From Pseudomonadota bacterium (GTDB taxonomy: Bacteria > Pseudomonadota > Alphaproteobacteria > Rhizobiales > JAKPQE01), in contig JAKPQE010000005.1 in NCBI GenBank assembly GCA_029572955.1, positions 1-42,558 of the forward strand: a DNA stretch of 42,558 bases. The letters run 5' to 3'. Below are positions 24,028 to 25,812 of this stretch, piece by piece. Each line of letters opens with the position of its first letter. Positions within the stretch are counted from its first letter, which is position 1. The notes under the pieces were generated by a model. It did not search any database, was not told where the DNA came from, and saw only the letters and a program-made list of their open reading frames with translations. The translations under genes were made by a program, and so were the position numbers.

Positions 24028-24867
24028 TCAGCCGGCGCCGTCGATCGCCGGCCGATAGCCTTCGGCGCCCCACCGGCGCATGCGGCCGCGCTCCGGCCCC
24101 TCGGCCATCGGCGAGAGGCCGTAGTGCCCGGCAAGGCGGGCAAGGGCAAGGCCGAGCACCACCTTGGCCGAGCGCGCCGGCCAGCCACGCTCGCGTTCGA
24201 CCTCCTCGAGGCCCTTGAGGAAACAGCAGACGTCGACGAGCACGCCGGACAGCTCCGGCCCGACGCTGCCGAGCGCTTTTTCGACACGGGCCCGCGCCGC
24301 GACGACCGCGTCGGTCAGCTCGGCCATGCCGCCGCGCCCGCCGCTCCGTCGCGCCCCGCTCGCCGCCGCGTCCCAGGCCGCCGTCACCCGCGGCATCAGC
24401 CCGCCGCGCGTATAGTCGGCGCGCAACCGTTCGCCGGCCATGAACTCGGCATCACCGACGAGCGGCCGGCCATCGCGACCGCGCCGGCGCCTGAGCCAGG
24501 AAAGCGGGCTTTCGGCCTCGTCGACGAGTACCGTGTCCGCCGCCTCGCCCGCCGCCTCGAAGGTGCGCAGCGCCCGCGCCTGATGCTGCGCCCGGAAGGG
24601 ATCCGCGTCCTGCGCCGCCGCCCGGCGCACGAAACCCGCCGCCGCCGGGCTCGCGACGAGGCTTGCCCCGTCGCCGGCAACGACCAGCCCGGCCGCGCGC
24701 AGGGCCTCGCCGAGCCGGGCCGGGAACCGCACCGGGCGATTGCCGCCGACCGTGCGGTAGCCGTGTTCGCCGGCGGCGATTGCCCGCGCGCCCGCGCCGA
24801 GAAGCGCCGTCAGCACGCGCACCGCCTGACGGCGGTCGAAATCGCCGCTCGCCGCCGCCGCGCTCAT
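24028..24867 (-). CDS. DUF6456 domain protein
   Basis: A 279-residue protein whose C-terminal half is the DUF6456 domain: [42 protein letters not shown], and the signature ELSGVLVDVCCFLKGLEEVE followed by WPARSAKVVLGLALARLAGHYGL. The N-terminal third (1-90) reads like a winged-helix fold with VRFPARLGEALRAAGLV, so a DNA-binding role is plausible but unproven. It starts with ATG at 24867, overlapping the stop of the DnaA-like gene in ATGA (24864-24867). Translational coupling suggests that the two proteins act together. The family occurs across Rhizobiales and Rhodobacterales without an assigned function. Confidence 0.85.
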   Translation of the reverse strand: MSAAAASGDFDRRQAVRVLTALLGAGARAIAAGEHGYRTVGGNRPVRFPARLGEALRAAGLVVAGDGASLVASPAAAGFVRRAAAQDADPFRAQHQARALRTFEAAGEAADTVLVDEAESPLSWLRRRRGRDGRPLVGDAEFMAGERLRADYTRGGLMPRVTAAWDAAASGARRSGGRGGMAELTDAVVAARARVEKALGSVGPELSGVLVDVCCFLKGLEEVERERGWPARSAKVVLGLALARLAGHYGLSPMAEGPERGRMRRWGAEGYRPAIDGAG

Positions 24868-25244
24868 GCCGGGATATCCGCTTCGGACGCCTCGAGCGCG
24901 CGCTCCAGCTCCTGCACCAGGCGATCGAACGCGGCTTCGTCGCGCCGGTCCTCGACGACCCGGCAGGCATGCGAGACGGTGGTGCGGTCGCGGCCGAAAT
25001 GGTCGCCGATCTCGGCCAGCGTCAGGCCGAGCACCACGTGGCAGAGGTACATGGCGACCTGGCGGGCGAGCGCGATCCGGGCAAGGCAGCGGGTCGGCGC
25101 CCGCAGCGCCGTGACCGGCAGGCGGAAGGCGTCGGCCACCGCCCGCTCCACCGCCCGACAGCGCGGCGACCCGATGATCACGGTCACCGGGAGGACCTGC
25201 CTCTCCGGCCGGTTCGACCCCTGAATATTACGCTCGCACAACAT
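24864..25244 (-). CDS. Stand-alone DnaA domain-IV-like helix-turn-helix protein
   Basis: This 126-residue protein has the DNA-binding domain of the replication initiator DnaA without the AAA+ ATPase. Residues 58-100 read as ALARQVAMYL, then LTLAEIGDHFGRDRTTVSHA, then a final helix. That matches the DnaA domain IV signature, in which RDHTTVLHA contacts the DnaA box; here His is replaced by Arg. The first 25 residues are unrelated and probably flexible. The ATG at 25244 has AAGGAG with 8-base spacing, which decides against an in-frame ATG at 25295. It is the first gene of an operon with DUF6456 and lies next to a cluster of inverted repeats. It could compete for DnaA boxes or act as a transcription factor; nothing here decides. 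Confidence 0.85.
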   Translation of the reverse strand: MLCERNIQGSNRPERQVLPVTVIIGSPRCRAVERAVADAFRLPVTALRAPTRCLARIALARQVAMYLCHVVLGLTLAEIGDHFGRDRTTVSHACRVVEDRRDEAAFDRLVQELERALEASEADIPA

Positions 25245-25273: not shown

Positions 25274-25291
25274 ATAGGATTAATTTCCTAT
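25274..25291. repeat. Inverted repeat ATAGGA-N6-TCCTAT upstream of the DnaA-like gene
   Basis: A perfect 6-bp inverted repeat with a 6-base AT spacer, centred 38 bases upstream of the DnaA-like start codon. The position is right for an operator overlapping the promoter, for example for autoregulation (inference). Confidence 0.45.
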
Positions 25292-25316
25292 ACACTCTAG
25301 TGAGCAGGCACCGCGA

Positions 25317-25403
25317 GGGGACAAGTTTCAGATTCGCCCCCTGAAATCTAAGGGGGCGTTACACGCAGTAGATAATCTTTGGTTGTATCGACGACTTGTC
25401 CCC
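25317..25403. repeat. Nested inverted repeats with pseudoknot potential
   Basis: The outer arms GGGGACAAGT (25317-25326) and ACTTGTCCCC (25394-25403) are a perfect 10-bp inverted repeat. Inside, TTTCAG (25326-25331) pairs with CTGAAA (25341-25346). CGCCCCC (25335-25341), mostly in that loop, can pair with GGGGGCG (25352-25358), an H-type pseudoknot geometry. The region is less GC-rich than its surroundings. It lies between the divergent DnaA-like gene and the small gene at 25471. Whether it acts as DNA (operators) or RNA (leader) is unknown. Confidence 0.6.
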
Positions 25404-25470
25404 GTTCTGCCCGCCCGGTCCCGGCCGGCCGACACTTCGGCGCCTGGAAAGAACGCCGGAGCCGATCACC

Positions 25471-25812
25471 ATGACCATCGACCGATCCCGCCGCGGGCGC
25501 ACCGGACCCTCCGGTCCGGCCGTCGCCTTGTGCAACTGTCTCTGCGCCGATGCCGCCGTCCTGCCCGCCTATGACCGCCGGGCGATGCTGCCGCGCCTGC
25601 TGCCGCTCGCCCCGGCCGATCTCGCCGAGGACTGGCCGGCTCTCACCCGCCGCCTCGTCGCCCGTCTCGCCCGCGCCCTTCGCGCCGAGCGCCGCCGTGG
25701 CCGGGCGGGCCTTGCCGGCTACGACATCGGCCGGCATCTCGCCCTTGCCCGGGTGCTGCGGGCGGAACGGCAGCGCCTCGACGGCAAGGGCGAGGAGCCA
25801 ACCATTCGTTAA
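25471..25812 (+). CDS. Small Arg/Ala-rich protein of unknown function
   Basis: I do not recognise this 113-residue protein with confidence. It has a basic N-terminus, a short Cys-containing stretch (CNCLCAD, about 21-27), then an arginine-rich helical region. It ends in YDIGRHLALARVLRAERQRL, which weakly resembles the DUF6477-type small proteins of alphaproteobacteria. No signal peptide or membrane helix is visible. The ATG at 25471 has GGAG about 9 bases upstream, and codon use looks like that of real genes here. It is divergent from the DnaA-like gene across the inverted-repeat region and could share its regulation. Confidence 0.6.
   Translation: MTIDRSRRGRTGPSGPAVALCNCLCADAAVLPAYDRRAMLPRLLPLAPADLAEDWPALTRRLVARLARALRAERRRGRAGLAGYDIGRHLALARVLRAERQRLDGKGEEPTIR

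Follow-up and report, generated by a model that had tools for sequence, protein, structure and literature searches.

What does a small DnaA-like DNA-binding protein do when its gene overlaps that of a DUF6456 protein? Such a pair is encoded on the minus strand of the window, by which we mean the whole 42,558-nucleotide stretch of DNA that was analysed. The first-pass annotation had described a 126-residue DnaA DNA-binding domain without its ATPase, joined by a four-base ATGA overlap to a DUF6456 gene, and had proposed either control of replication by competition at DnaA boxes or a transcription factor with a partner. The description of the genes was borne out. The upstream gene, gafY (24864 to 25244), begins with an ATG at 25244 and ends with a TGA stop at 24866-24864, and its 126-aa product matched the Pfam family Bac_DnaA_C over residues 32-96 (E = 4.5e-19). 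No ATPase family was among the eight Pfam matches of this product up to E = 1, and the AAA+ ATPase domain III of the DnaA replication initiator was not found in the protein by Pfam. A profile of 22 GafY relatives matched the solved DnaA domain IV (PDB 1j1v) with E = 1.8e-16. The downstream gene, gafZ (24028 to 24867), begins with an ATG at 24867 and runs to 24028; its 279-aa product, a GTA activator and presumed anti-terminator (see below), matched Pfam DUF6456 over residues 115-250 (E = 2e-48). The gafY stop and the gafZ start share the bases ATGA at 24864-24867, an overlap that suggests translational coupling of the two genes.

gafZ was the single DUF6456 gene of the genome. Bac_DnaA_C was found in three places, namely DnaA itself (contig C172), gafY, and a 361-aa protein (L003:1444-2529; G000:C132) that ends in this domain and has a degenerate motif, RDCATV. 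The DNA-contact motif of GafY reads RDRTTV instead of RDHTTV, as had been noticed earlier, and the genome's own DnaA reads GGRDHTTV. Asp86, Arg87, and Thr89 (window numbering) were invariant across 22 aligned GafY proteins, and Arg87 aligns with the His before Thr435 of E. coli DnaA (434 by counting). The pair has two neighbors: a PALP-family enzyme gene and, upstream of gafY, a divergent 113-aa ORF (25471 to 25812, plus strand), for which no family was found above the cut-off.

Gene transfer agents (GTAs) are tame, virus-like particles that shuttle host DNA between cells. In Rhodobacter they are activated by GafA, and the pair in the window corresponds to its split form, GafY/GafZ. GafA of Rhodobacter capsulatus was described as having a DnaA-like N-terminal part and a sigma-like C-terminal DNA-binding part (PMC9638019), and Sherlock and Fogg (2022, PMC9638019) reported that it is mostly split into two genes in Hyphomicrobiales, the first being DnaA-like. 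The split genes of Caulobacter are GafY, earlier called HdaB, and GafZ; the two proteins were reported to form a complex and to be necessary and, together, sufficient for GTAs (PMC9632790). The same paper reports that Caulobacter gafYZ is repressed by RogA, that the RogA binding region contains two inverted repeats GGAA-N4-TTCC, and that RogA was enriched at gafYZ and, by the account given there, not at the GTA promoter. Also in Caulobacter, GafY and IHF were reported to activate and GafZ to be an anti-terminator (PMC11150451), and XRE repressors of host and phage act on gafYZ as well (PMC10688885; PMC13236601). The window holds a DUF6456 gene adjacent to and downstream of a DnaA-domain-IV-like gene, as in GafYZ/GafA activators, and it is a well-placed and ordinary representative of the known GafYZ kind that is encoded here. 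Among 14 named control genomes, Caulobacter vibrioides was the only one with a DUF6456 match. Three S24 proteins were found in the genome of the window, one of them LexA-like by reading and none identified as RogA; the two non-LexA candidates keep GDSM, and RogA is said to lack key residues (PMC9632790).

The genome also carries an RcGTA-type gene cluster (contig C150:37836-54595), as judged by the eight GTA-type families looked at. These follow the usual order of terminase, portal, protease, capsid, connector, tail tube, DUF2460, and GTA_TIM; the gene in the small-terminase position before the terminase had no Pfam match. Between capsid and connector lie a zinc-type dehydrogenase gene on the opposite strand (L044:10687-12102, which is G000:C150:43686-45101) and a second foreign gene, encoding DUF1192, and the corresponding gap in the sister genome (G001) is about 100 bases. 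Split by two foreign genes, the genome's own cluster may not work. gafYZ and the cluster are located on different contigs.

We surveyed 249 genomes of the order for both markers. DUF6456 was found in 201 genomes, the GTA_TIM marker in 173, and both in 165, leaving 36 genomes with DUF6456 only, 8 with GTA_TIM only, and 40 with neither (Fisher odds ratio 22.9, p = 1.7e-17, relatedness ignored). Distances from gafZ to the GTA genes were determined for the 110 genomes with both places among the 150 matches listed for each marker. Within these matches, gafZ and a GTA gene were at most 70 kb apart on one contig in 48 genomes, and in 45 of the 110 the GTA gp15 gene was 17.7-59.1 kb downstream of gafZ on the same strand; the remainder were 3 that were near in another arrangement, 7 that were far apart on one contig, and 55 with different contigs. 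A same-strand gafY was directly upstream of gafZ at 83 of 110 gafZ loci, some genomes being represented twice. The other 27 were 1 fused candidate, 25 loci without gafY, and L035, which was flagged as non-adjacent because its ORF starts were over-extended. Likewise, gafY was directly upstream at 88 of 100 further gafZ loci, with 11 lacking it and 1 having it about 1.9 kb upstream. The two genes were therefore linked in most relatives, and the earlier concern that a co-occurrence survey might find them unlinked was not realized. Because DUF6456 tracks GTA genes, these data support the proposed transcription factor with a partner, the pair being GafY/GafZ, and do not support replication control by competition at DnaA boxes; HdaB, too, was re-assigned by the Caulobacter authors from replication to GTA control (PMC9632790).

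Phage carriers of gafYZ were considered and rejected. MW462191 was the only phage-collection record matching gafZ, and it matched gafY too. In this record, deposited as phage (MW462191.1:68052-84600, L157), gafYZ lie near genes for a sulfur acceptor protein and an alkanesulfonate transporter, making a bacterial contig filed in error the probable explanation. GTA terminase and portal genes were found within about 3 kb downstream of GafZ on the same strand in 17 of 21 GafZ-bearing IMG/VR contigs. A gafY match was absent from the examined stretch of L129, L132-L140, L142-L147, and L149, in which a GafZ-like gene precedes terminase and portal. In L148, the one contig inspected among the other four, gafZ precedes a chromosomal dapF-like gene, by eye. 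The 316-aa PHROG family phrog_31864 matched GafY near its start (E = 7.6e-4) and GafZ near its end (E = 7.6e-6), which raises the possibility of a phage-encoded fusion resembling GafA.

Immediately upstream of gafY, the window shows one RogA-type palindrome and two TTGTCCCC boxes in inverted orientation to each other. The palindrome, TAGGAAATTAATCCTA in the minus-strand reading (25275 to 25290), has the form GGAA-N4-ATCC, one letter off GGAA-N4-TTCC; it is conserved in relatives and is a candidate RogA-type operator. A -10-like hexamer, TAGAGT, was noted by eye just upstream of it on the minus strand (25294 to 25299). A consensus scanner found no sigma-70 promoter at the genome's own gafYZ site or its own GTA site. 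We searched 78 non-redundant gafY upstream regions for over-represented 7-mers with no prior motif. Among the most over-represented, ATTCCTA (42 compared to 1.47 expected) and TATTCCT (35 compared to 0.97 expected) are both part of the palindrome TAGGAA-N4-TTCCTA, of which at least 10 of 12 letters were present in 59 of 84 gafY promoters (0.55 expected) and in 55 of 81 held-out gafY promoters (0.5 expected). Held-out regions were taken from other genomes of the same order after removal of those sharing long exact stretches with the first set, and many are still relatives. The core of this putative operator is the RogA operator published for Caulobacter (PMC9632790).

Within the genome itself, a palindrome pattern written from the gafYZ and GTA promoter sequences themselves was found with at most 1 mismatch at 5 places, including both of those promoters (the latter at C150:37629). 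When up to 2 mismatches were allowed, it was not over-represented in this genome (strand counts of 44 and 41 compared to 95 and 95 for the reversed control). Since the pattern was written from the genome's own sequences and was not over-represented, the argument for the palindrome rests on position and conservation. The other places with at most 1 mismatch (G000:C30:62425, G000:C3:22412, and G000:C27:6798) are possible repressor targets or chance. No clear link of the other palindrome-like places to GTA genes was seen in eight regions of the genome, with ORFs read by eye.

A second element was recovered from the same promoters. TATCCCC, another of the most over-represented 7-mers and part of TTATCCCCG, was present in 43 of 78 gafY promoters (1.73 expected), and the form TATCC[AC]C was present in 47 of the 78 and in 52 of 81 held-out promoters (2.8 expected). 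TTATCCCCG lies mostly 26-40 nt upstream of the palindrome, which would place it at about -35 provided that the promoter uses the -10-like hexamer next to the palindrome. The window has no strict TATCC[AC]C box and carries in its place the variant TTGTCCCC twice, inverted. One copy, TTGTCCCCT (25316 to 25324, minus strand; 7/9 to TTATCCCCG), is the GafY-box candidate at about -35, placed by its position among 55 promoters. The other, TTGTCCCCG, is a GafY-box-like site in inverted orientation (25396 to 25404, plus strand), and the pair forms 10-bp inverted arms. In the strict TATCC[AC]C counts of box versus gafY, and in the tree test, the window's own variant was scored as absent. A repeated mobile element was rejected as the source of the inverted repeat, the 111-bp stretch occurring once in the genome. 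A composite pattern of box and palindrome, written from the first promoter set and scanned over the 249 genomes, was found at 10 places, compared to 0 for the reversed control. Eight of the 10, some in first-set genomes, were on the same strand as a DUF6456 domain and preceded it by 0.5-0.8 kb; one was 2.7 kb upstream (G139), and one was in a genome without a DUF6456 match (G066).

Loci with gafZ and no gafY were informative about this box. The 25 in the first set were L008, L025, L033, L034, L062, L064, L067, L069, L070, L073, L078, L080, L085, L086, L090, L092, L095, L097, L103, L105-L107, L113, L115, and L123, and a lenient six-frame search of them found no trace of gafY. TATCC[AC]C was present in 1 of these 25 and in 1 of 10 held-out loci of the same kind. 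The palindrome upstream of gafZ matched at 8-11 of 12 letters in the first set, with at least 9 letters in 20 of 25 (at least 10 in 9 of 25) and in 5 of 10 held-out. Overall, the box was present in 99 of 159 promoters with gafY compared to 2 of 34 without (one duplicate locus omitted; Fisher p = 3.9e-10, a value inflated by dependence between relatives). Co-loss of box and gafY was not significant after correction for phylogeny (sign test on the GafZ tree with 5 and 4 supported independent pairs, underpowered); on average, 2.7 and 2.4 of these pairs went in the same direction and 0.0 and 0.02 in the opposite one. GafZ is kept in gafY-less loci and a Bac_DnaA_C match was present in every genome surveyed, so neither GafZ nor DnaA explains the pattern of the box well. 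Because the box is rare where gafZ occurs without gafY, it is the best candidate for a GafY site, and these counts are best read as GafY recognizing a box of the TTATCCCCG type. Lineages without gafY may run the GTA on GafZ alone.

The DnaA box is TTATCCACA, from which TTATCCCCG departs at positions 7 and 9. The changed contact residue, Arg87, and the changed box positions would fit each other. The early hunch about DnaA boxes finds an echo here, in that the candidate GafY site in gafY's own promoter resembles a DnaA box. ACTATG is part of the GafY site that mutation mapped in Caulobacter (PMC11150451); this site has no plain match to TTATCCCCG, which counts against the GafY box. The 2022 Caulobacter paper states that a GafYZ motif could not be predicted (PMC9632790), and the 2024 paper describes the motif as hard to obtain from ChIP data, with one site defined by truncation and mutation (PMC11150451). 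In the searched text of the GafYZ, GafA, and RogA literature, neither a GafY box nor a RogA-type operator at a GTA promoter was found. As far as the searched literature shows, the predictions of the GafY box and of the GTA-promoter sites are new.

At the GTA promoters, at least 10 of 12 letters of the palindrome were present in 10 of 30 (0.28 expected) and in 19 of 39 held-out (0.45 expected). In 15 of the 19 held-out promoters with the palindrome, it starts exactly 14 nt before the -35 and thus abuts it. The -35 together with an inverted repeat, TTGACAGCGT-N-ACGCT, was matched at 13 or more of 15 letters in 17 of 30 promoters and 28 of 39 held-out (0.0 and 0.05 expected, respectively). This repeat lies between -35 and -10, where Caulobacter is reported to have its GafZ element (PMC11150451). 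The genome's own GTA promoter reads TAGGAAAATATTC-TTGACAGCGTGACGGT-GATCGGT-TAGGTT. We saw no GafY box at the -35 of GTA promoters in 30 regions. TATCC[AC]C was present in 7 of the 30, with an eighth region having it on the opposite strand; where a -35 was found, these matches precede it by about 105-180 nt and fall in apparent coding sequence of the upstream gene. Among held-out promoters, 2 of 39 had TATCC[AC]C. A GafY box in GTA promoters was rejected. An intrinsic terminator in the genome's own GTA leader was also rejected, with one match on the other strand and a mean of 0.5 in shuffles. Many GTA promoters (e.g., L158, L169, L178, and L210) have a similar stretch after the -10, roughly CATCGTCGGACAGTTGCG by eye, possibly serving the anti-terminator as a pause or loading element.

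Taken together, the best overall explanation is that gafY-gafZ is the two-gene GafA activator of GTAs, controlled through a scheme of RogA, GafY, and GafZ sites, and we give this a probability of about 0.88. Genes and gene order, the GTA cluster, and the sites were read directly in the sequence; the protein placed on each site is what we infer. From the comparison of promoters, a RogA-type repressor would sit on the palindrome over the gafYZ start site and also on the similar one that adjoins the -35 in the GTA promoter. Once the repressor leaves, GafY would bind TTATCCCCG at about -35 of its own promoter, giving positive feedback, and GafZ would load at the inverted repeat between the -35 and -10 of the GTA promoter. 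As reported for Caulobacter, GafY, a lone DnaA-type helix-turn-helix, would bind DNA and recruit RNA polymerase, and GafZ would ride along on the polymerase as an anti-terminator, allowing transcription of the entire GTA cluster. A stricter version has roughly even odds of being correct in all of its parts, namely that GafY is a DnaA domain re-tuned to a derived DnaA box, TTATCCCCG, and activates itself from -35; that one Hyphomicrobiales repressor guards both the activator and GTA promoters; that the GafZ site is AGCGT-N-ACGCT right after TTGAC; and that the box disappeared along with gafY in some lineages, whose GTA is now driven by GafZ alone. Two reports count against the scheme. In R. capsulatus, it was the C-terminal, GafZ-like part and not the DnaA-like part that was described as binding the gafA promoter specifically, in the -35 region, and RogA was reported to show no enrichment at the Caulobacter GTA promoter (PMC9632790).

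A role in chromosome replication, through competition at DnaA boxes or an effect on DnaA inactivation, is very improbable. HdaB was reportedly proposed to act on DnaA inactivation, and membership in the DnaA domain IV family, with its profile match, agrees with such a role. When the Caulobacter protein was overexpressed, some loci rose in copy number and division was inhibited; however, the authors ascribe these effects to GTA production (PMC9632790). The partner gene tracks GTA genes, no match to TTATCCACA with 1 mismatch or fewer was found near gafYZ in the window, and GafY has RDRTT where DnaA has RDHTT, with one residue fewer before the motif.

The assignment of the box to GafY is less settled, there being a minor but real chance that TTATCCCCG serves as a -35 element, is bound by DnaA itself, or is recognized by the sigma-like domain of GafZ. 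Its spacing from the palindrome is near that of a -35, its sequence is similar to that of a DnaA box, the GafY site of Caulobacter does not look like it (PMC11150451), the C-terminal GafZ-like part was reported to bind the gafA -35 region in R. capsulatus, and the phylogeny-corrected test was not significant. Yet gafZ is kept and a DnaA match is present everywhere while the box falls from 99/159 with gafY to 2/34 without it, and gafY-less loci keep the palindrome (20/25; 5/10 held-out) more often than the box. It is unlikely that the palindrome of the GTA promoters is an A+T-rich activator site instead of a repressor operator. The lack of RogA enrichment reported for the Caulobacter GTA promoter (PMC9632790) would favor an activator site, but the palindrome resembles the GGAA-N4-TTCC form of the RogA operator given in the same paper. 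It also lies directly against a near-consensus TTGACA, and such a -35 should work without an activator, given that a near-consensus -35 bypassed GafYZ in Caulobacter (PMC11150451). The GTA promoters of gafY-less L200, L203, L213, and L216 have a TAGGAAAATA stretch before TTGACA that matches the palindrome at 8-9 of 12 letters, which is close to chance.

Silencing of GTAs matters, as they move host DNA at the cost of the producing cell. The GafYZ pair is known and its DNA code hardly so; our proposed sites were derived from two sets of gafY promoters, 159 in total, and from 69 GTA promoters, all of one order. If GafY does read a changed DnaA box, it would be a clear case of an initiator DNA-binding domain recruited into a virus-derived switch.

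Among known systems, E. coli DnaA domain IV (PDB 1j1v) shares with GafY the profile and most of the DNA-contact helix, whereas GafY has no ATPase, an Arg for the His before Thr435, and one residue fewer before the motif. R. capsulatus GafA (rcc01865) has the same two domains in the same order but as one fused protein, with autoregulation reported through the C-terminal part and the gafA promoter under CtrA. The split gafA of Hyphomicrobiales (PMC9638019) comes from the same order of bacteria and is split as here; its usual neighbors are given as sufE and a mucR/HTH gene, whereas here they are the PALP-family gene and the 113-aa ORF. Caulobacter crescentus GafY/GafZ (CCNA_01111/01112) is like the pair in the window, by families and order, in having adjacent DnaA-domain-IV and GafA-C-terminal genes, and also in having a promoter palindrome close to GGAA-N4-TTCC and a GTA cluster in the genome. 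The Caulobacter gafYZ promoter is described with two repeats of the GGAA-N4-TTCC type; that of the window has one. The GafY site mapped in the Caulobacter GTA promoter is distant (-123 to -113), on the far upstream side of an IHF site (PMC11150451), and RogA was reported as not found at that promoter (PMC9632790). In contrast, the order studied here has a GafY-box candidate at about -35 of gafYZ, and many of its GTA promoters combine a near-consensus TTGACA with a RogA-type palindrome.
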